Positions 980 through 58,645 of a stretch of DNA of 64,000 bases are shown in pieces. Both the position numbers and the translations under genes were made by a program. The stretch spans positions 11,467,662 to 11,531,661 of the forward strand of contig JAKSZU010000002.1 of assembly GCA_026018925.1 (NCBI GenBank). The letters are read 5' to 3'. Each line of letters starts with the position of its first letter. The first letter of the stretch is position 1. The notes below the pieces were generated by a model. It was not told where the DNA came from. It searched no databases and saw only the letters and a program-made list of their open reading frames with translations. The DNA comes from Tupaia tana. Taxonomy: Eukaryota > Chordata > Mammalia > Scandentia > Tupaiidae.

Positions 980-1342
980 TTAGGTAGTAGGGAAAGTCAT
1001 GATGCTTTTTTTTTTTTTTTTTTTTTTTTTGAGAGGCTTTTGCTATAGGGTGCATGCACTCGCCAGAAAGACAAAGAGAGACAGAGAGACAGAAAGCAAG
1101 AAATCACCCCCCAGGGGGGATAGCCATGCCACAATCCCTTCTCCTCCATTCTCCTCTCAGGATCTTGGACACTCATGCACGTGTGCCCAGCGTGACTTTA
1201 AGCCACTGGGCCTGGGACTCAAACCACAGTTGACTTCATGGGAGGCCAGCGACATAGCCATTACACCACCTGCTAGTCCCAGGCATGATGGATTTTTAAC
1301 ATAGAAAAATAAGTCACAACTTTTCTGACAACCCAATATAAT
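980..1342. mobile_element. Mariner-type palindromic MITE, split by a SINE
   Basis: The left arm (980-1004, 'taggtagtagggaaagtcat') and right arm (1284-1340, ending 'cttttctgacaacccaata') form the ~80-bp palindrome seen repeatedly in this window. A family A SINE (1005-1283) separates them. Ends of the type TTRGGT...AAAGTCATGA and flanking TA fit a Tc1/mariner non-autonomous element. Confidence 0.75.
1005..1283 (-). mobile_element. SINE family A, inserted in the MITE
   Basis: Antisense copy: T-tract at 1005-1030, 'tttgctataggg', CT/GA tract, 'ccccccaggggggat', and head complement ending 'ctgctagtccc'. The duplication CATGATG flanks it at 998-1004 and 1284-1290, which is the MITE loop sequence. 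Confidence 0.9.
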
Positions 1343-1870
1343 AAAATTAGCAGGCAAGAAGTTTAGCTACTATTACAAACATGCTCCTATGTCCTAGAAA
1401 GTAGAAGGAAGTATACTCATAGTAAGGAGAGAAATGAATGTTGAAAAATTCCAAATAGAAAATATAGAAAATATAATATCTTAAGTAAACATACACTGGA
1501 GGGATTAACAACTGATTAGACAAAATGGAGGAGGAAGAAAGGCAGTGATCTTCATAAAATATCAATAGAAACTATCCATATTTGAGACTACAGAGAAAAA
1601 AATGGGTAGATTATCAGTGACCTATGGGACCACGTCAGGTGGTCCAACATTGGAGAAATTGGGATTGCCCATTCACACAAAGCAGATACTGAAGAGAGAT
1701 GAAATAAAATTTGAAAACTTTTAGAAGATTGGAAGTAACTAAAAAGTAATTTAAAGAAAGGGTTAGGGCTGAGAATGAGGGAAAAAATGATTCATGCTCA
1801 TCCAGTCTTTCCTTGAAACACAGAGATGGGCCATGTCCTCCTAAAGGAGAACTTTAAAGTATTGGCACTC

Positions 1871-3775
1871 AGTTTAATACAATACTGAAAAATTTATTTG
1901 TATTCATATGTATATTATACATGCTCTGCCACTTTTTTGAGGGTGGGAGCAGAAACTAAATTAAACTCACAATACCTTCAGCATCATCAATAGTATTATC
2001 TTGGCATTCATGCCAATACCCTTAATTATTCACCTCATTATCATCTTAAGTCCTTTGTGATATGAAAATAGGTGTACGTCAGTACTTTTTTGAGTAGACT
2101 ATCTACAAAAGTATAAAGAATCCCTTGAGTATAAGACGGCTATGAAGATACACAAAGAATTATAAAATCCAGTATGAAGTGAAGTGACACAAAGGGTCAG
2201 ACACAGGCAGAGGTAAAAAACTGTGAACAGAGGTTTACGATGAAACAGGAGATAAGTAATGCCAATTCCAGGATAAAGAGAATCAGTATTTCAGTACCAC
2301 AGAGCCACAAAGATCACACAGCATCACAGTGACCTCCACCCATGGGCCATCATCGGTTTGGCCAAAGCTAGCTTTTGGACAAAAGATTGTTCTCCCATTT
2401 TAGCTGTGAACTCATGCTACAGTTTAGGTGTAATAAAGAAGAAACGTGCATCTGCCTCTGAGGAGATTAGTAAAAAGAGTAAGAACATTTCCAATCCATA
2501 CATAGAAATGATATAAAATATTTCTAAGTACCAATTGCTCTGAAGTGGCCCATCTCAAAGAAGAGAAAGTGCTTGTGGGACTCCTGTGTGCTGATTTAAG
2601 CATTATGAATCTACCAGGTTTCTGAATAAATGCCACTTAATACAGATACCCAAATGTAGACAAGTCCATTATAATTTTGACAAGTTAATGTCACTAATGA
2701 CTTCATTTATAAAAAAGGGCCTTTGCAAGATATTTTATTTAAAAAAAAAAAAAGAATTAGGTATTTGATTGATTTTAAGTCACTAAGTAAATCCAGAAAA
2801 ATAGAAAATCAGGATTACTGTTAGAATAAAAGCTTTGGCCTTAATAATATGGTTTTGAACATTCAATTTGGAATTTCATTAAGATTCAATTCTGGCATTC
2901 CAAAATTCAATGACTTCCTCCAGCTTCCCAGTAAAAGCGATAATTTCTAAGACTACAAACCACAGTTTCTTTCTAACCTTGTGTTTTTCATGATAATTTA
3001 GGGAAAAAAAAGAGAAATTGAGAAACATATTATGACAGGTAATCATTTGCAAACACACAACTCTTTCAACGCCTGCCATGTTCGGCTTCGTTTTATAGCA
3101 TCTGTCTTGGCAATATAAATTGTGCTTGGCTGCAGAGGTGTGAGGTGCAGTACAGTAAAGAAAAACAATCGTGACAACTGAAAAATAAAGCACAATGTGT
3201 GAGCAAGAGTGTGCGTGTGCACATGCGGATGTTTGTGTTGAGTTCAGAATAGAGAAGCTCTCTGCTTTTCAGGCATTCTTTCAAAGGAGAATGATGTTAT
3301 TTTGGTTGGCTTCCTTGTTTTCTTTACAGCAAAGCAATGCCACTAGAGGAATGAGACAACTGTCATATCTCTGAGGGTTGCCAAACAACCTCAAACCAGT
3401 CCAAAAGGAGCTCCCTCAGCAGTTCCACAAAAGAAGGCAATTTAGTCCACCACGCACAGATTGATTGTGTCAGTAATATGTACTATTCTAAAAGTTGTGT
3501 TTTTCTAAATAATAGCCTATATGTCACATGAATTACTTTTTAAAGCAGTAGCATAGGACTACTAGAAAATTATATATGATATTATTACTGTTCAAACTCA
3601 AGATGGTATACTCACATTTTTGCAAACTAATTTTCACGCTGCTTCCAAAGCATTTCACTCAAGACATATGTTAAAAATGGTAAATTTTATGAATTTTTAA
3701 ACAAGTCTAAAGAATCTCAAATCCAAAACTTTGAAAGTATATACTTGAATCTCAGAAATAAAATCACATTTACTT
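1871..3775. other. No recognisable feature
   Basis: AT-rich unique-looking sequence. The short open frames at 2424-2636 and 2879-3284 show no domain, signal peptide or codon bias. It may hold old repeats too diverged for me to name. Confidence 0.6.
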
Positions 3776-7182: not shown

Positions 7183-7220
7183 GATCCATCTCTTCCAAAT
7201 TTCCCTGTGCTTCTTTATAG

Positions 7221-7465
7221 GTAACTCCTACCCTGACCTCTAGTCTCTGGAGACCACTATCTCTATAAGGTAACTCCTATCCTGACCTCTAGTCTCTGGA
7301 GACCACTGTCCCTATAAGGTAACTCCTACCCTGACAGCTAGTCTCTGGAGACCACTATCTCTATAAGGTAACTCCTATCCTGACCTCTAGTCTCTGGAGA
7401 CCACTGTCCCTATAAGGTAACTCCTACCCTGACCGCTAGTCTCTGGAGACCACTGTCCCTATAGG
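7221..7465. repeat. 49-bp minisatellite, five copies
   Basis: Copies start at 7221, 7270, 7319, 7368 and 7417, exactly 49 bp apart; each begins GTAACTCCTA and contains 'agtctctggagaccact'. Copies alternate between ending 'atctctataag' and 'gtccctataag', so the working unit may be a 98-bp dimer. The unit is itself L1 3' UTR sequence (complement). Confidence 0.95.
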
Positions 7466-8067
7466 TTAACCTTTCTGGAAACTAGTAGCCTTTGAGTATG
7501 TCTTGCTTCATGCAGCAGGTTGCATCTGAGATTAATCTATGTTGTGAGCATTAACACTTCATTCTCTTCTATGGTTGTTTAGTGTTCCACTGTACATGAA
7601 ATTTCATCATATGCACCGTGGTCTGTGTATCCTCTCACCATTTGAAAGACATTTGGGTGGTTTCTGGTTTGGGTTATCAAGGACAAAGCTACTTTAACCA
7701 TAGTATATAGATTTCTGGGTGAGCATTAGTTTTCATTTCACTTGGATAAATATCCAGGAGTGTAAGTGTTGGTCTCATTGAGTCAGTGTGTATTTAAATG
7801 TCTGGACACTTACACACCCATGAGTAATTCCAATTCCAGGTGTTCCGCATACTGATTATAGTTTGATTTTTGAATGACAATTCTAATACGTGGGTAATGG
7901 TACCTTGTTTTGGTTTTAATTTGCTCCCCTTTTGACTAATGATGTTGAGTATCTTGTCCTGTGTCTACTTGCTATCTTTCCAACTTTGGTGAGGAATGTA
8001 TTAAAATATTTTACTTATTATTACTTTTTTTTCTTATTTTTTCAGTCTTCAGAATTATTCGGATCTA

Positions 8068-13170: not shown

Positions 13171-13452
13171 GTCTTTTTTTTTTTTTTTTTTTTTTTTGGA
13201 GAGGTTTTTGCTATAGGGCACGTGCGCTCGCCAGACAGACAGAGAGAGATAGAGAGATAGAAAGTGAGAAATCACCCCCCAGGGGGGATGGCCACGCCGC
13301 AATCTCTTCTCCTCCATTCTCCTCTCGGGATCTTGGGTACGTGCACACACGCGCCCGGTATGAGTTTTAAGCCACCGGGTCCGGGATGCGAACCGCGGTC
13401 GACTACGTGGGAGTCCAGCGACATAGCCATTACTAGCTAACTGCTGGTCCCA
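13171..13452 (-). mobile_element. SINE family A (young-looking)
   Basis: Antisense full-length copy with CpG-rich head complement ('ccaccgggtccgggatgcga', 'accgcggtcgactacgtggg'), hairpin 'ccccccaggggggat' and T-tract. Target-site duplication 'atcactgtctt' at about 13160-13170 and 13457-13467. Retained CpGs suggest a recent insertion. Confidence 0.93.
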
Positions 13453-24989: not shown

Positions 24990-27059
24990 TTCTGTGTCAA
25001 ATTCACTGGTTTATCCATGAAGGTCAGCCATGGACTGACCGTGGGAGGACTTCAGGGTCACAGCACATTCCTCTGAAGGGTTCAGAGAGGACACTGGACC
25101 AGGAGGCATGCCGCTAGTGGCGATGTACGTGGGAGTGTGTGCCCTTAGGACCCATGCCTAGGGGGCAGATCTTATCTCCTCAAAGGTATTCAACAAGCTT
25201 TCATTAAGGACAAACAAAACTGTTTTTAAAAATTCACTAATTCAATAAGTAATATTGAAACACAATTTGAAATGTATTGGGTCATCAGAAAAGTCATGAT
25301 GCATTTTTCTATGCAAATATTACTATTTTCTATGCAATATTACTTGCATGAAACTTTTCTACTTAATATGTAAATAGTAAACACACACAAACCAAGCAAG
25401 TACACCATTCTCCCCAAATCTTACCAATTGGCATGAAAGAAGCATTCTGTGCAGAGTTATAGTTCTGACGTATTACTATTCATTTATGATCTATTACTTC
25501 ACAAACTGAGTGCACATTTAAAATTTTGGAAGAGTGCAATGCATGTCCACACTTTGATGATACATGCACATCTCTAACCTCTGGTCTATGTCATACCAGT
25601 TCCCGCATGAAAGAGTCTTTCAATTTTATGTCTGTGTTAAGAGGAATCATACACTATTTCACCTATAAAATTGGATATTGAAGAAGAAAGAAATACAGTA
25701 AACACGTTTTCTCTAGAGAATACTGTTCATAATTATTTCCCATTAATCAAATGCAATGTGTAACCTGCCAGAAAGCTCTGTAGCATTTTCCTAATAATAG
25801 TAGCTTCTAATCTATACAGCATACTGCTTCATTTTAGTCAAAATGACATCCTTAAAATCCATAAATACATACTAGAAGGTATAAAGAGGGAATAAATTAT
25901 AACATATGCTATGGCTTCTAGCCAGAGAAGAATAGAAACACAGAAAAGAGAAAAACAAGCAATGCTTTCCACAGATGAATGATGAAAAGCATGCACATCG
26001 ACATGGCTCTACAGGGACAGCTAGGAAATCACTCTTCTAAAAAAATAGTTTTAAGCAGAACAATTATCTGGAAAAGGATCCGAACACATTGCACTGCCCC
26101 GAGCAGCCCCATAAAGCAGTGTGATGCCTCTATAAAGCAAAGCTCCGTCCTGCAGGGCTGTCAGGGGAGAGCTTGCGTGCAATGAGGGAGCTCCCTGCAC
26201 ATTTACATCTACTCTGCCAATCCACTCTCTCTCACGGTGCCCAGTGCACCTCCTCCTGCACCCGCAAATCCGGATTAGGCTCTGTGTGCATCTGCTCTGC
26301 GGTTACAGGTCTTCTCCCCTAATTACAGCAGTCCCACTGCTCTGGAGGAGTAGCCCTGCTCAGACTAACACTGAAGCATGCACGCAACTGAATGAAAATG
26401 AGGGCAGGAGTGATTTATGGGAAAGGACATTTAAAGATGAAAAAGTTATGTGAGGTTGGGAAAGTATGCCCACGGAGCGATGGATGAGGCATTTGGAAGA
26501 CCAGTTGTTGAAATGCTAGGTCAAGTCAAGCAGAAATGTGATAGTTTTTATTTTACAACAGTCAGAAGGAACTTGCTAATTAGTATCTATCAAAGAAGTT
26601 TTTAAGTGGCCGATCCTTACACTTTTTACGTGTAGGGTGCAGAGGTTACGCATGAGAAAGCCCTGATGTATTTGTTACTCTGAAATTTTCTTATACAACA
26701 AAAGACAATTGTAAGAAGTTCTGTCATTTGGAATCCCAATATTGTATTTATATTAAAATAATTATTACAGTGAAGTATAGTAGAAAAGCTTGTGAGTCAT
26801 AGAACAATGGCAGACACCTATGTGCCATCTAAAAATCTCTACAAGGTTTTACTAGGACAATGTCATTAGGAAAACAGTAACGTTAGTTTTTACACATAAC
26901 ATTAGAAAGCACATATTATCCATGCAATGTACACCTACTGTGGGAATTTCAGATTTTTATGTCAAAGATCATGGAAAATCTATTAAATATGCTATATCTA
27001 AATCAAAGTGTTTAATTACTGCTAGTGATATCTCCACTGTGAACTTAGCTAGAATCAAA
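24990..27059. other. Mostly unrecognised; half MITE inside
   Basis: Apart from the half MITE at 25277-25319, I see no repeat or gene. 26030-26460 is somewhat more GC-rich, with open frames (25979-26185, 26244-26453) lacking any domain. Confidence 0.45.
25277..25319. mobile_element. Half of a mariner-type MITE
   Basis: 'ttgggtcatcagaaaagtca' then 'tgatgcatttttctatgcaa' is a near-perfect left arm. The right arm is replaced by AT-rich sequence in which 'ttttctatgcaatatt' is repeated once. Confidence 0.75.
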
Positions 27060-30557: not shown

Positions 30558-31800
30558 CTAAAAATACATTTTTAATAATCCAAATGATGTATTGAAGTAT
30601 ATTCAAATGAAAAAGCTTTCTTTGAAGACAAAATTTCTTGAAGTCTAGGGACAATCCAATCTTGCTATTAGTGAAATCCAAGACTGATCATAGGTTATGG
30701 AAGTCAAATTACAGTCTCAATCAGAGACTAAAATACTTACAATGAAAAACACAGCAAAAGCTGCATATCCTTACAAGATAAATTTCTTTCTCTCACTATC
30801 TATGAGAAGTCATGTATTCTGACTTGAAAAATGGCTGCATAAACTACTATGTCTCCCTAGTAGCAAATGATAATGCCTTATCATTGGTCTGGGCTTAGAG
30901 AATGACTAGGTGCACTTAAATTTTCATAAGTGCACTTATCAAAATCCATAACAGTATGCTGCTTGGTTTTTTGTTTTGTTTTGTTTTGTTTTTCTATTTA
31001 AGTTTTTTCTTCCTTGTGCCCCATGACTAGTAATTAGAAGAACTAAATTGGAAGTCATACTGACCAATTAAAATTTTACATGTAATTTTCTTTAAGTTAT
31101 GTATAAAACTTGCCTGTGTTTTTAAAACCCAAGTGGAATTATGGCATTTGCAAGGTAAACCAAGACATTTCATCCATCATTCTAATCTGTTTACAAAAAA
31201 AAGATCGAAGTAGCATTTGGGGAACAAAATGAGTGACATAAAAATGGCAGAAATATGTCAATAATAGTGATATTTCAGAGATCTGGGATACTGGCAACTA
31301 ATATGATCATTATCATTTCAATTCCCCAGACAGAACATTATCACTGTTCATGTCATTATAGATGATATAAATCTTAGGCACACTCATTGTACACTGAAAA
31401 GCAGCAGAAAGAAATGGTGCTTGTGACTGGAATCCTCCGTTCACTAAAAACTAGAAGCACATGTGCCCCTTTGTACAAGAGAGAATGAGAAAGTACCACC
31501 AAGTTACCTATAGACAAGCTACATAAAAAGGAACCAAAACAACAAAAGAAAAATTAAATAGCAATTAATTAAATTAATTATTTGTAACCATTATTCAGAT
31601 GTGAACTTCTTGCAAAGCTCTGTTCTGGCCATCAGCTCCTAAGTGCTATATCCCACAGCACTAGTAAGAAACTACCTGAGGACACAGAACACCCACATGT
31701 CATCCAGGTGGAGACTGCTGAGGACTTCAGTCTTCCCTCTTTAAGATGAGTGTTCACATGGAAGACGGAGTTATTGATAACAGGATTGAGGCAAAAAGAC
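30558..31800. other. No recognisable feature
   Basis: AT-rich sequence up to the MITE that hosts the composite retrotransposon. No gene supported. Confidence 0.5.
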
Positions 31801-31831
31801 TATTAGGTTGTTGAGAAAGTTATGATGCATT

Positions 31832-32105
31832 TTTTTTTTTTTTTTTTTTTTGGAGAGGTTTTTCACTATAGGGCGCGTGCGCTCGCCAGACAGACAGAGA
31901 GAGACATAGAGACAGAAAGCGAGAAATCACCCCCCAGGGGGGATGGTCACGCCGCAATCCCTTCTCCTCCATTCTCCTCTTGGGATTCTGGGCACGCACG
32001 CACACGTGCCCGGCGTGAGTTGTAAGCCACCGGGTCCGAGACTCGAACCGCAGTCAACTACGTGGGAGTCCAGCGACATAGCCATTACGCTAACTGCTGG
32101 TTCCC
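31832..32105 (-). mobile_element. SINE family A (young), inserted in the MITE
   Basis: Full antisense copy, CpG-rich: 'gggcgcgtgcgctcgccaga', 'ccccccaggggggatggtca', 'acgtgggagtccagcga'. Head complement ends 'gctggttccc'. The MITE loop motif ATGATGCATTTTT flanks it on both sides (from 31822 and from 32106). Confidence 0.93.
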
Positions 32106-32118
32106 ATGATGCATTTTT
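32101..32118. repeat. Left target-site duplication of the composite element
   Basis: TTCCCATGATGCATTTTT, identical to 35782-35799. The first five bases are the 5' end of the neighbouring SINE (complement), so the SINE was present before the composite element landed. Confidence 0.85.
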
Positions 32119-32126
32119 TTTTTTTT

Positions 32127-32170
32127 GCACCAAAAATAAACCCATACTTTAATTTCATTTTTCCATAAAC
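32127..32170 (-). other. Probable 3'-transduced segment
   Basis: On the minus strand it reads 'gtttatggaaaaatgaaatt', 'aaagtatgggtttatttttg', 'gtgc', lying between two A-tracts. It closely matches 51915-51956, part of a different MITE. ATTAAA at 32153-32148 sits about 22 bases before the second A-tract. This is what read-through past the element's own signal would leave behind. Confidence 0.65.
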
Positions 32171-32180
32171 TTTTTTTTTT

Positions 32181-32539
32181 GTTATTATCTATTTTTTTAT
32201 TACATTGAATTACTTACAACTTTACAGTGTATTACATTGCTTTTTCAAAAGGGAATGCCATGCATGTCAGTCAGTACAGAGACATTAATCTCCCCGCTTC
32301 AACATTCAATATCTTTCCTATGTTTCCCCCAATCATTATTATTATTTTTCTAATTATTTTTTATGATAAACATGATTTTATTTCCAATTATCAGATCATA
32401 AAGTTCCCAACAATAGGAAACGTAGACTGCACTCAGGGCTGGACCAAGGGTGGGTCTCGTGCAGCCCCGAAAATGTAGGTGAATCTCCATGGAACACAGT
32501 TTCAGGAACGCGGCTCAGGAAAGCAGAGACGGCCATCAG
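32181..32539 (-). other. 3' module of the composite element
   Basis: About 360 bp of non-repetitive sequence after the VNTR: 'cgttcctgaaactgtgttcc', 'ggggctgcacgagaccc', 'ttgttgggaactttatgatc', then AT-rich to 'gtaagtaattcaatgtaata'. AATAAA at 32201-32196 is 15 bases before the first A-tract. It may be the 3' UTR of the local L1 family, but I cannot confirm this. Confidence 0.6.
32196..32201 (-). terminator. Polyadenylation signal AATAAA of the composite element
   Basis: Complement TTTATT. 15 bases upstream of the A10 tract at 32180-32171 on the minus strand, normal spacing for cleavage and polyadenylation. Confidence 0.6.
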
Positions 32540-34592
32540 CGGTTGCGGCACGCGGGGCAGATCCCGGCCACGGCCCGCGGGGGCAGAGCCCCGGCCACGG
32601 CACGCGGGGCAGACCCCGGCCACGGCACGCGGGGCAGAGCCCCGGCCACGGCACGCGGGGCAGAACCGCGGCCACGGCACGCGGGGCAGAACCCCGGCCA
32701 CGGCACGCGGGGCAGAGTCCCGGCCACGGCACGCGGGGGCAGACCCCGGCCACGGCACGCGGGGACAGGACCACGGCCACGGCACGCGGGGGCAGGCCAC
32801 GGCACGCGGGGCAGAGCCCCGGCCACGGCACGCGGGACAGGGCCCCGGCCAAGGCACGCGGGGCAGAACCCGGCCACGGCACGCGGGGGCAGACCCCGGC
32901 CACGGCACATGGGGGCAGACCCCGGCCACGGCACGCGGGGACAGGACCACAGCCACGGCACGCGGGGGCAGGCCCCGGCCACAGCACGCGGGGCAGAGTC
33001 CCGGCCACGGCACGCGGGACAGGGCCCCGGCCACGGCACGCGGGGCAGAACCCGGCCACGGCACGAGGGGGCAGACCCCGGCCACGGCACACGGGGCAGA
33101 CCCCGGCCACGGCACGCGGGGACAGGACCACGGCCACGGCACGCGTGGGCAGGCCCCGGCCACGGCACGCGGGGCAGAGTCCCGGCCACGGCACGCGGGG
33201 ATAGAACCACGGCCACGGCAAGCGGGGCAGAGTCCCGGCCACGTCACGCGGGGCAGACCCCGGCCAAGGCACGTGGGGGCAGAGCCCGGCCACGGCACGC
33301 GGGACAGGGCCCCGGCCACGGCACGCGGGGCAGGGCCCCGGCCACGGCACGTGGGGACAGACCCCGGCCACAGCACGCGGGGCAGACCCCGGCCACGGCA
33401 CGCGGGGACAGGACCACAGCCACGGCACGCGGGGGCAGGCCCCGGCCACAGCACGCGGGGCAGAGTCCCGGCCACGGCACACGGGGACAGGACCACGGCC
33501 ACGGCATGCGGGGACAGGACCACGGCCACGGCACGCGTGGGCAGGCCCCGGCCACGGCACGCGGGGCAGAGTCCCGGCCACGGCACGCGGGGCAGAGTCC
33601 CGGCCACGTCACGCGGGGCAGACCCCGGCCAAGGCACGTGGGGGCAGAGCCCGGCCACGGCACGCGGGACAGGGCCCCGGCCACGGCACGCGGGGCAGGG
33701 CCCCGGCCACGGCACGCGGGGTCAGACCCCGGCCACGGCACGCGGGGCAGAGTCCCGGCCACGGCACGCGGGGACAGGACCACGGCCACGGCACGCGGGG
33801 ACAGGACCACGGCCACGGCACGCGGGGCAGAGCCCCGGCCTCGGCACGCGGGGCAGAGTCCCGGCCACGGCACGCGGGGGCAGAACCCAGCCACGGCACG
33901 CGGGGGCATACCCCGGCCACGGCACGCGGGGCAGAGCCCGGCCACGGCACGCGGGGCAGAGCCCCGGTCGGGCCGGACCTCCGGATAGGGCATGCGGAGC
34001 AGAGCCCTGGCCACGGCACACGGGGCAGACCCCGGCCAAGGCACGCGGGGCAGACCCCGGCCAAGGCACGCGGGGCAGACGCCGGCCACGGCACGCGGGG
34101 CAGACCCCGGCCACGGCACGCGGGACAGGGCCCCAGCCACAGCACGCGGGGCAGACCCCGGCCACGGCCCGCGGAGCAGAGCCCCGGCCACGGCACACGG
34201 GGCAGACCCCGGCCAAGGCACGCGGGGCAGACCCCGGCCACGGCACACGGGGTCAGAGCCCCGGCCACGGCACATGGGACAGACCCCGGCCAAGGCACGC
34301 GGGGTCAGAGCCCCGGCCACGGCACACGGGGCAGAGCCCCGGCCATGGCACGCGGGACAGACCCCGGCCACGGCACGCGGGGCAGACCCCGGCCATGGCA
34401 CACAGGACAGAGCCCCGGCCACGGCACGTGGGGCAGAGCCTGTCGGGCCAGACCTCCAGACAGGGCACGTGGAGCGGAGCCCCCGCGCCCTGACCCCGCA
34501 CCCCAGCACGTGGATTGGAGCCCCCGCGCCCGCCTCCCCACCCCCACGCGCCGGCACGCGGAGCGGAGCCCCCGCCTGACGCCCCTGGACGT
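32540..34592. repeat. GC-rich 25-bp VNTR (roughly 75-80 units)
   Basis: Each unit contains GGCACGCGGGGCAGA followed by a CCCCGGCCAC-type half; the period is 25 bp. Variants: 'gcagacccc', 'gcagagcccc', 'gcagagtccc', 'acaggaccacggcc', 'acagggcccc'. Longer blocks recur: 33241-33350 matches 33606-33714 (offset 365 bp), and the block at 32941 recurs at 33408 (offset 467 bp). Distinct units with 'gtcgggcc...gacctcc' occur at 33967 and 34441. No stop codon occurs in the unit, and 25 is not a multiple of 3, so all six frames stay open. The long frames here (up to 499 codons) follow from that and are not genes. Dense CpG makes it a likely methylation target. Confidence 0.95.
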
Positions 34593-35081
34593 TTAATTGT
34601 ATCTAGTACTTCTTGCATATTATTCTCAAAGTTTTGGGCCATTTTCTCAGTCTTTATGGTGGACCTTTCTAGGCCAGCCATTTTCTCTTCTACATTAGAG
34701 ATTCCATTTTCTGAATGATCTAGTCTGCTTTTAATACTTTCAAGGGAGATTTTGACTTCTTGTATTATAGCCTTCATCTCTAACAGCTCCATCTGATTCT
34801 TTTGTAAAGTGTGAAACTCCTCTTTTAGATCTTGCATGAATTTCCTCACCTCCTAGAACTCTTCAACTCCTTTCTCTTTCCCCTTCAGCAGTTCCTTGTC
34901 TCTCTTCTCTTCGATCTCTGTTAGCTTTTGCCATTATGAATGATCTGAATTGTTTATCAGACATTTCCATGAATTCCCTTGAACTGTGTGTGGATGAAGA
35001 GGAGCTATCCGTTTCAATTGGAGGAGGGATATTTTCCTGCTTCTCCATATTTCTTGTGGTCCTGCAGCGATTTCTAGTCAT
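34593..35081 (-). pseudogene. L1 ORF1 N-terminal half, frameshifted, truncated at the RRM border
   Basis: The ATG at 35081 starts a 72-codon frame (MTRNRCRTTRNMEKQENI... with a serine-rich stretch) that resembles an L1 ORF1p N-terminus. A frameshift after about codon 58 ends it at 34863. The continuation lies in another frame, with an in-frame TAG at 34855-34853, then an open coiled-coil stretch (KEEFHTLQKNQMELLEMK..., heptad-like Leu/Ile/Met) to ...EVLDTIKRP. In ORF1p the RRM domain starts directly after this KRP. Here the VNTR begins instead, in frame (GASGG...). The RRM and C-terminal nucleic-acid-binding domains, and all of ORF2, are missing. It cannot make a functional ORF1p. Confidence 0.88.
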
Positions 35082-35587
35082 CTGGTGGATGGTCGGTTTC
35101 TTCCCAAACTTTTGAAGTTTAATATGAGGGTTGGGAAGTGTGCAGAAAAGGAAGCAGAGAGAGGAAACAATACCAACAACAACAAAAAAAACCAGACAAG
35201 AAACAGAGAAAAAAAGAGAAAAGCTTTGGAATAAATCTAAAAAAGAAAAATTAATATTAAAAAAATTTCAATAAAAATCAAAAATTAGAAAACCGCGCGG
35301 CATGCTAGCGCGGCGCGTGAAATGTCTAGCTCTCAGGAGCCATGGAGCAGACTGTCTCTTGAAGAAGGGCTGTTCTGGGAGGAGCAGAGGGGATTATTAA
35401 CAAAACAAAGGCCTAGGAGGGAGGGGCCAAAGGGCCCTGTAAGAGGCCTCATCTTAAAAAATTCTAAAAAGCAAAAATTAAAAAAAAAGACAGACAGACA
35501 GACAGACAGAGAGAGAGAGAGAGAGTGAGAGGTAGAGAGAGACAAAGATTGATTCAGAGACAGGAGATATGAAAGGGGTTTTCCTAC
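35082..35587 (-). promoter_or_regulatory. Leader / 5' UTR of the composite element
   Basis: Between the monomers and the ORF1 ATG. Includes a third, diverged monomer-like piece at 35322-35376 ('caggagccatggagcag', 'cttgaagaagggctgttc'), a CpG cluster with near-palindromic 'cgcgcggcatgctagcgcgg' (35293-35312), a (GACA)n/(GA)n tract at 35488-35528 and A-rich sequence before the ATG. The role as an internal Pol II promoter is inferred from position and from L1 biology. Confidence 0.55.
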
Positions 35588-35781
35588 CACGTGGGTTTGG
35601 TATGATGGAGGCCCAGTTAGGAGTGGGACATCTTCATTTCTCCCAGCATGTCTACATCCCAGGAGCCATTGAGCAGGCTTTCTCTTGAAGAAGGGCTGTT
35701 CACGTGGGTTTGGTATGATGGAGGCCCAGTTAGGAGTGGGACATCTTCATTTCTCCCAGCATGTCTACATCCCAGGAGCCA
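35588..35781 (-). repeat. 113-bp tandem monomers at the 5' end of the element
   Basis: One full unit (35588-35700) and one partial (35701-35781), both starting on the plus strand with CACGTGGGTTTGGTATGATG and nearly identical. Arrays of promoter monomers at the 5' end are known in some L1 families (mouse A and F types); this looks like the same arrangement, with the outermost copy truncated at insertion. Confidence 0.85.
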
Positions 35782-35799
35782 TTCCCATGATGCATTTTT
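35782..35799. repeat. Right target-site duplication of the composite element
   Basis: Identical to 32101-32118. It includes five bases derived from the SINE end, which is absent from the MITE consensus. Confidence 0.85.
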
Positions 35800-35841
35800 A
35801 CATAGGAAAAATAAGTCATGATTTTCCTGATACAATATTTG

Positions 35842-37113
35842 TCATACTCCCATTTGTTGAATTTGTTCTTTGTTTTAGGTGGGATTTTTGTATTTTTGGC
35901 GTCTGTTTTTGTGTGTTTATTTATTTTTTTACTTGTTTCCTGACAAGTGTGAGATTCCACCATAATCTTGTACCAAAGAAAAAATGAATAAAATAAAATC
36001 ATTCTTTCTAAGTGAGAGTCCACCTGTAAAAAGTGATGCATCAAGAAAATAGCACTGGCTTTGCATGATAAGGAAGAGGCTAAAGGTTTTGTTCTCTTTC
36101 CTTGGCTCTCAAAACACCTTAAATGTTATATTTTCCTTTCTTAAATTATTTTTATTTATATTTAATCACTGTACATCTTTACAGAATACAAAATGGTTTT
36201 TCCCAGTGTGAAAGCAGTGTATTTTAGTCAAATCATAGCTATTACTGTGTACATTACCATCAACAGACAAATTTTCATTTTTGTTTTTGCTGTTTCTCTG
36301 ATGAATTTAAGGAGCTATTTTTATCTGATTAAGTTTGATAAGACAATTTAGGTGACTGAAAGAAAACTTTTATGACTTTTTCGACTTTGATATTCATAAA
36401 TGTTCTTTCCCTAAGACTTCCTGATTCCCAGGCTTATAATAAATTCACCTATCCTCCACCTGTAAAATAGTAATAATGAAAAATGAATTTTTGAATCTTT
36501 ATTTTAAAAACTACTTTCCACTTTGTTGATTTGATAATTCAGAATACAGGAAGACTTCACTTGCCCAGAATCTGTAGTATATAAATTCAAATTTATAGAT
36601 CAAAAGAACTCTGATTTCAGAGTAAAAACCCTTGGACCAACACCAAGTTCTGTCTTTTTTTCTTAAGCTCCTCCCCAGGGTGTTACCATGCAGTGATTCC
36701 CTTCCCCCAGCCCTCCAGGTCATCGGGCTCTAGGGCTCCTGCCTGCACAGCATGTTCTCAGGTCAACAGGGGATCCAAACCCACATCGGGATGTGGCTTC
36801 CAGCACTGCAGATCTGTGAGCTGCTGCCCGTACCACCCAGGCTGGGCCTCTGCTGGGCTCAAGGATTTTGAGTATATCACTTAACAATTCTGTGCCTCAA
36901 TTTCTTCAGGTGTTTAAGAGAATAGGACCAACTCAATTCTTCTTTTGTTTCAAGATCCTATAATTATAAATCATGAGGAAAGTTTTTGTTTCATCAACTA
37001 ACTGAAGTCTTTTGAGTAACTGGATTTTATAAGGTGATATTAGAAATATTTTAAGTTTTTTTAAATTTTTTTTTAAAGAGCACATATTAATGCTTTTAAA
37101 AATATACCATCTT
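35842..37113. other. Mostly unrecognised; weak L1 and MIR pieces
   Basis: 36130-36330 ('aatcactgtacatctttaca', 'tattactgtgtacattacca') could be an antisense L1M 3' end. 36855-36935 ('ttgagtatatcacttaacaa', 'ttctgtgcctcaatttcttc') resembles MIR. No coding sequence. Confidence 0.4.
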
Positions 37114-51898: not shown

Positions 51899-52031
51899 AA
51901 GGGGACTCGAAAAGGTGAATGAAAAATGAAATTGGAGCATGAGTTTATTTTGGTACAAAAAAGTTTTGAAATCTGCATAGTTATTTTCATAATATGCACT
52001 TTCTATGGGCTTTTATTTAAAAGACCCTTTG
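51899..52031. mobile_element. Second MITE type (about 133 bp, imperfect terminal inverted repeats)
   Basis: The left end is 'aaggggactcgaaaag', and the right end reads 'aaagggtctttt' on the complement. The interior includes 'gaaaaatgaaattggagcat', 'gagtttattttggtac', 'aagttttgaaatctgcatag' and 'cataatatgcactttctatg'. It resembles a common placental Tc1/mariner-like MITE whose name I cannot recall with certainty. Part of it matches the composite element's extra 3' segment. Confidence 0.6.
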
Positions 52032-58089: not shown

Positions 58090-58368
58090 TACAGCAAGAT
58101 ACCTGGGTTGTGCAGTGGAGGCTACAAAAGGCTTGCCCTGGGCTGGTCGGGAGCTGCCTTCTAAAAGCTGTGCTCAGCGTCAAGGCTTGGGTAGCTCCAG
58201 TTGCAGTGTGACCCTGACGGCCCAGCTCCTGTAATACCTGTCCTTCTGGATTGTCATTTCCAGCCACACCTGACTCCCCAACTTAATATCATCCATATTC
58301 CATAGCCTCTGTATATGGTCCCCTTTTACCTTCTTAAAATTCAGGCTTCTCAAAAATATTCTGGATTG

Positions 58369-58645
58369 GGAACCAGCAGTTAGCGTAATGGCTATGTCGC
58401 TGGACTCCCACATAGTTGACGGCGGTTCGCGTCCCAGACCCGGTGGCTTAAAACTCACGCTGGGCGCATGTGTGTGCATGCCCAAGATCCCGAGAGGAGA
58501 GTGGAGGAGAAGGGATTGCGGCATGACCATCCCCTCTGGGGGGTGATTTCTCGCTTTCTGTCTCTATGTCTCTCTCTCTCTGTCTGGCGAGCGCACGCGC
58601 CCTATAGCAAAAACCTCTCCAAAAAAATAAATAAATAAATAAAAG
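58369..58645 (+). mobile_element. SINE family A (young)
   Basis: 'gggaaccagcagttagcgta', 'ggcggttcgcgtcccagacc', 'cccaagatcccgagagga', 'cgagcgcacgcgccctatag', A/AAAT tail. Exact duplication AATATTCTGGAT at 58356-58367 and 58646-58657. Confidence 0.95.

Follow-up and report, generated by a model that had tools for sequence, protein, structure and literature searches.

The window analyzed here, a 64,000-nucleotide stretch of the Tupaia tana genome (contig JAKSZU010000002.1), carries on its minus strand, at positions 32119–35781, a composite element that joins 5′ tandem monomers, a leader and half of an L1-type open reading frame 1 (ORF1) to a GC-rich array with a variable number of tandem repeats (VNTR) and an L1 3′ end. 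We consider it very probable that this element belongs to a dispersed family of composite retrotransposons, most likely transcribed from their 5′ units, with insertion carried out in trans by the genome’s L1 proteins. With noticeably less assurance, we favor the broader view that VNTR composites arose here a second time, independently of those in hominoids. In this view, two L1 lineages and a GC-rich VNTR set between their parts would have given rise to a family that was recently, and is perhaps still, active and that, as SVA did, repeatedly trapped host exons at its 5′ end. A first-pass annotation of the same letters had described an element with an exact 18-bp duplication at both ends, 5′ monomers, half of ORF1 and a VNTR of about 2 kb, and had predicted a multi-copy family. 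The duplicated 18-mer indeed brackets the element and has no third occurrence within the window, the monomers appear as an exact 83-bp repeat at 113-bp spacing, and the VNTR measures 1.9 kb, in units of about 25–27 bp.

We searched the same assembly with three diagnostic probes. The probe spanning the ORF1/GC junction (401 bp) gave 40 full-length matches at 99–100% identity (the best 40 of 2022 first-look candidates), the VNTR/3′ junction probe gave 40 matches over 199–201 of 201 bases at 99–100% (the best 40 of 1559), and the 3′-end probe gave 40 at 99–100% (the best 40 of 493). Pooled, these searches placed the family at no fewer than 101 distinct loci, spread over 26 contigs, with 99–100% identity; first-look counts are unverified and about 40 candidates were scored per search, so 101 is a lower bound. 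Near-identical copies, complete or partial, therefore number about a hundred or more in this genome, and the prediction of a family holds. The 28 that we read comprise 26 ORF1-selected copies (the one in the window plus 25 more of the 40 ORF1-junction loci) and two from the 40 3′-end loci. The first-pass annotation had proposed a search with the two junctions and had reasoned that a single locus, or full L1s without the VNTR elsewhere, would speak against a mobile family. Instead, many loci matched each junction, and all 26 ORF1-selected copies carried both junctions and the GC block, mostly with target duplications of their own.

The anatomy of the composite was consistent across copies. Along with the ORF1/GC junction, every ORF1-selected copy contained a 196-bp block after the VNTR, and the GC block (VNTR plus the block joining it to ORF1) ranged from 968 to 3554 bp at 79–81% GC in all 26. 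The L1-type 3′ end was present in 25 of the 26; the exception, L011, ends where the L1 3′ end starts, and its target duplication sits at that point. Both 3′-selected copies carried the 196-bp block and the L1 end, one of them (L039) being 5′-truncated within the VNTR. More variation was found upstream. The leader was whole in 20 of 26 copies. Only its 3′ portion remained in L016 and L024, L010 had it in inverted orientation, L021 had lost it through 5′ truncation, and other sequence stood in its place in L035 and L038. Grouped by monomer phase, the 5′ ends of 17 copies fell at positions 7–13 (six), 82–88 (five), 101–104 (three) or elsewhere (three), a phasing that would fit transcription starts inside the monomers. 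Next to the 3′ end of the L013 copy, an antisense relative of the leader (67%; L013:4771–4953) was observed and is a possible lead to the leader’s origin.

A 3′ module and an A-tail, also part of the first-pass description, were present, but its AATAAA was not borne out as a family feature. We rejected the internal AATAAA (32377–32382) as the family’s poly(A) signal, as only the window copy and L009 (2 of 28 copies) carry it; at this position, 25 of the 28 have a run of 8 to 10 A, and L017 gave no match. Premature polyadenylation of L011 at this motif was likewise rejected, since L011 has an A-run there instead.

Evidence for retrotransposition came from the boundaries of the copies. Exact target duplications of 14–19 bp, own to each copy, flanked 16 of the 26 ORF1-selected copies (L019, L035, L036, L037 and 12 more, including the window copy with its 18 bp). 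In a control on 19 copies, with L010 and L015 left out, duplications of at least 15 bp were found in 10 of 19 copies vs. none of 342 mismatched flank pairs, where the longest was 13 bp; at a threshold of 12 bp, the counts were 11 of 19 vs. 7 of 342. The duplications tended to be A-rich at their start, in keeping with what an L1 endonuclease is expected to produce. The 5′ ends of L010 and L020 were inverted, and 5′ inversion is a known product of L1 twin priming. Together, the A-tails, 5′ truncation and two 5′ inversions fit L1-mediated insertion. Between loci, the 600-bp flanks matched only through copies of short interspersed elements (SINEs), short pieces and one transduced piece of 36 bp, in a comparison covering matches of at least 90% or at least 200 bp. 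The mean pairwise difference was 0.28% (maximum 2.1%) among the ORF1-end segments of 25 copies and 1.6% (maximum 3.2%) among the 3′ modules of 27.

Still, some of these data weigh against an L1-mobilized family. No duplication of at least 14 bp was found in 10 of the 26 ORF1-selected copies. Among these, L015 was left out of duplication testing because its 5′ end falls outside the fetched stretch, and the others were short, rearranged or of low complexity. Short duplications were seen in L026 (10 bp), L009 (12 bp, AT-rich) and L016 (8 bp), and our script found no countable duplication in L010, L012, L013, L020, L034 or L038; the flank matches of L012 and L013 lie in A-runs only, and a 20-bp match in L034 is distant from both ends. 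Even where a duplication exists, its length is uncertain in a few copies, as the match extends some bases into the monomer. Moreover, copies were picked as the best matches to the window copy, which biases identity towards youth and understates the diversity of the family.

The L1-derived parts of the composite pointed to two sources. The best match of the ORF1 coiled-coil part in the PDB was L1 ORF1p (E 7e-4); Pfam assigned the first ORF1 piece to no family, and its 21 matches for the second all fell below their cut-offs. At the DNA level, the piece was 85.3% identical to the 340-amino-acid ORF1 of L029, a member of an ORF1-only family resembling HAL1 (half-L1) and the closest of those compared, which bears out its first-pass naming as the 5′ half of an L1 ORF1. 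Its identity to the ORF1 of L044, upstream of the L042 frame, was 66% over 261 columns. The same TAG stop interrupts the piece in all 26 ORF1-selected copies, and a frameshift is common to the window copy and L009. By contrast, the 3′ end (window 32171–32346) was 91.7% identical over 181 columns to a 3′ untranslated region (UTR) end in L042, which lies downstream of, and in frame with, an open L1-type reverse-transcriptase frame of 1343 amino acids; an older L1 end, in L021, matched it at 80.6% identity, and another in L011 aligned with it. Because the ORF1 piece is nearest to the HAL1-like family and the 3′ end nearest to the L042 lineage, the composite is best taken as chimeric, with two L1 lineages and further parts contributing to it. 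The leader had been attributed to the genome’s own L1, which these comparisons did not bear out: it gave only short AT-rich matches to L029 (best E 6e-5) and none at E 1e-4 to L043 and L044, the upstream part of an ORF2-type L1. Compared with the 3′ ends of two young L1s, the 196-bp block yielded nothing at E 1e-4. As for an enzyme source, all 150 scored RVT_1 matches were above the family cut-off and many lay within open frames of 1290 or 1343 amino acids, so an intact-looking source of ORF2p is present in the genome.

Several observations on these L1 relatives were made along the way. The long open reverse-transcriptase frames fall into two classes, 1290 vs. 1343/1322 amino acids (L041, L042), and the 3′ ends of one L1 of each class differ, which suggests that this genome has two or more L1 lineages whose long frames are open. 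The HAL1-like family is very young, with all 132 scored loci (the best 132 of 86177 first-look candidates) at 98% and free of stops over the matched stretch. All five of its loci that were read (L029 at about 1057–3330, and L030–L033) consist of ORF1, about 1 kb and an A-tail, with no ORF2 seen. Upstream of the HAL1-like 5′ UTR, L033:1–517 reads like complementary DNA of ribosomal protein L21, and L033 is possibly a chimeric insertion. A protein filed under Streptomyces narbonensis (P0001) was 98% identical to ORF1s of this genome, and the S. narbonensis assembly therefore looks contaminated with animal DNA.

Foreign sequence at the 5′ end was joined just after an AG in four of the 26 ORF1-selected copies (L019, L026, L035 and L038). 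L019 and L026 have in common a 36-bp piece whose join to the monomer lies, to within one base, just after the AG of ACAG/CCCTTC; upstream of the piece, their sequences differ, and their target duplications, of 15 and 10 bp, lie 396 and 590 bp upstream, respectively. The foreign part of L026 contains codons 1–40 of XRCC2 uninterrupted (E 6.8e-19), and the likeness, as judged by eye, does not extend beyond base 121 of the coding sequence, a point that we take to be the exon 2/3 boundary. In L035 and L038, another GC-rich 5′ unit (99.1% identical over 462 columns) is joined just after an AG in the leader, with the 17-bp target duplication of L035 located 12 bp before it. The presence of this unit in two copies suggests a small captured-exon subfamily. 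The placement of the AGs, together with the unbroken run of XRCC2 codons, leads us to infer that splicing lies behind these joins.

These results are consistent with the following route. The composite would encode no working protein and would be transcribed from starts inside its 5′ monomers, with ORF2p provided by the L1 lineage that has the matching 3′ end. The VNTR and the L1 3′ end may help its RNA to capture L1 proteins, while VNTR length would change at the DNA level. Exons of upstream genes could be spliced into acceptors in the 5′ region, giving rise to new 5′ subfamilies. Judged from sequence comparison, copying by the L1 machinery is likely, much as for human SVA elements, a likeness of workings rather than of demonstrated descent.

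Other explanations were weighed against this dispersed, L1-mobilized family. That the window holds a single internally deleted L1 or HAL1 copy whose tandem repeats expanded locally would accord with the L1 origin of the ORF1 piece and 3′ end, but we rejected it as practically impossible given multi-copy junctions at 101 or more loci, both of them in every ORF1-selected copy, with differing flanks. Autonomous L1s differ further in carrying ORF2, with its endonuclease and reverse transcriptase, whereas in 26 of 26 copies of the composite ORF1 runs directly into the GC block, VNTR and 196-bp block. Dispersal as segmental duplications or in the manner of a satellite DNA, without retrotransposition, gains something from the ability of VNTRs to expand at the DNA level and from several copies being identical across the ORF1 piece; the individual target duplications, A-tails and 5′ inversions, flanks whose only matches lie in SINEs and short pieces, and XRCC2 codons captured without an intron nevertheless make it extremely unlikely. 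Slightly less remote, and still very improbable, is a HAL1 subfamily with an incidental VNTR that acts through its own ORF1 protein. HAL1 elements are ORF1-derived, lack ORF2, have A-tails and target duplications, and rely on full L1s (PMC5322556, PMC5753468), and the composite resembles them in lacking ORF2 and in its A-tail and target duplications. A very young ORF1-only family with an ORF1 85% identical to that of the composite is, moreover, present in this genome. However, HAL1 encodes ORF1p, whereas the composite has only half of ORF1, with its stop in every ORF1-selected copy; it adds a VNTR, its 3′ end comes from another L1 lineage, and neither the 5′ UTR nor the 3′ part of the HAL1-like family matched anything inside it. 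Since none of the copies read could yield ORF1p, the composite is not a HAL1.

True membership of the hominoid SVA/LAVA group is also hardly credible, even with the same functional order of 5′ repeats, GC-rich VNTR, foreign 3′ part, A-tail and exon capture. An Rfam search of 31800–35850 at E up to 1 gave no match and so no 7SL-type part, although this test is indirect, as Rfam includes 7SL RNA but is not known to include an Alu model. In place of the CT-hexamer/Alu-like 5′ region, the composite has 113-bp monomers, a leader and a dead ORF1, and its 3′ end is that of an L1 3′ UTR. Its VNTR units, at 25–27 bp, are set apart from the 30–50 bp given for SVA in PMC4432496 by described length rather than by alignment. 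SVA, LAVA, PVA and FVA are described as non-autonomous and L1-dependent, with 5′ repeats, a variable GC-rich VNTR, a foreign 3′ part, an A-tail and transduction (PMC4432496, PMC12593883, PMC5753468). The composite is like them in the varying length of its central GC-rich VNTR, in its L1-type insertion marks and in its transductions and exon trapping, comparable to SVA_F1, the exon-capturing subfamily with MAST2 described in PMC12593883. The composite would thus work like SVA and LAVA yet is not a shown member of their group, because it has no 7SL-type match, another unit length and other 5′ and 3′ parts. The first-pass annotation had likewise proposed an independent origin, and the different parts and missing 7SL-type match point the same way.

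Likenesses to two further systems were limited. Mouse-type L1s carry a variable number of tandem 5′ monomers, and the composite likewise has variable 5′ units but neither ORF2 nor an open ORF1. In chimeric L1/RNA insertions, as presented in PMC13174262, L1 RNA is joined to other RNA, for example by splicing or template switching; the joining of RNAs is alike, but the composite is a chimera that was amplified into a family and contains a VNTR. VNTR composites are called specific to hominoid primates in PMC4432496, and the papers listed by our literature searches, which also covered HAL1, included no SVA-like or VNTR-bearing L1 composite outside hominoids. If such composites did arise twice, the parallel with SVA would imply that a long GC-rich VNTR in itself turns an RNA into a favorable substrate of the L1 proteins, and the role of the VNTR would become a comparison of two independent experiments. 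Features found in both (GC-rich VNTR, L1-type insertion and 5′ exon capture) would be candidates for function, and parts that differ, such as the Alu-like part and SINE-R, would be dispensable. The composite would also offer a non-human system for studying exon trapping and the instability caused by VNTR-bearing mobile DNA. On the practical side, repeat libraries for Tupaia tana may miss or split this family.

Table 1. Parts of the composite and its surroundings in the window (5′ and 3′ refer to the sense of the element)
Feature	Positions	Strand	Remarks
Target-site duplication, 5′ copy	35782–35799	−	Exact 18-mer, two window copies only
5′ tandem monomers, 113-bp unit, 324-bp higher-order unit	35461–35781	−	83-bp exact repeat; unit number varies between copies
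Leader, monomers to ORF1 piece	35082–35460	−	Whole in 20/26 ORF1-selected copies
5′ half of L1/HAL1-type ORF1	34586–35081	−	85.3% DNA identity to L029 ORF1; TAG; frameshift
Non-repeating GC-rich block joining ORF1 and VNTR	34438–34585	−	98–100% identity in 26 copies
GC-rich VNTR	32546–34437	−	Units 25–27 bp; 80% GC; CpG observed/expected 0.84
196-bp block, VNTR to L1 tail	32350–32545	−	Present in 28/28 copies read
Terminal L1 3′ UTR sequence, A-rich tract at end	32171–32349	−	91.7% to L042; 80.6% to older L1 in L021
Extra 44-bp 3′ segment inside target duplications	32127–32170	−	Without counterpart in 19 other printed 3′ ends
A-tail (T run on + strand)	32119–32126	−	Read from sequence
Target-site duplication, 3′ copy	32101–32118	−	Exact 18-mer
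Older SINE	31850–32105	−	13-bp duplication; many relatives in window

At the 3′ end of the window element, the extra 44-bp segment is probably a 3′ transduction; other extra 3′ pieces were found in L017, L025 and L028, three of the 19 other copies printed. Since it is 81% similar to window 51910–51962, the segment probably belongs to an older repeat. The insertion site also preserves a sequence of events. The target duplication of the neighboring SINE, the 13-mer ATGATGCATTTTT, occurs at 31822, 32106 and 35787 (and on the + strand at 25296 as well), and the three neighboring occurrences are explained by the SINE having inserted first and the composite having later entered the SINE’s 5′ duplication. 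SINEs of ~255 bp are very dense in the window (e.g., 58367–58622 and 13196–13451), and 14 near-complete window copies were 83–94% identical to their own majority consensus.

We claim no special fold for the VNTR RNA, as folding beyond composition was seen in one of five 200-nucleotide segments (z −4.7), the other four ranging from −0.1 to −1.5. A scan of viral contigs with the VNTR unit gave no match, and across the whole window no tRNA genes were found and no Rfam family reached its gathering score. Elsewhere in the window, positions 7219–7470 hold a tandem array of a 49-bp unit in ~5 copies with 91% matches.

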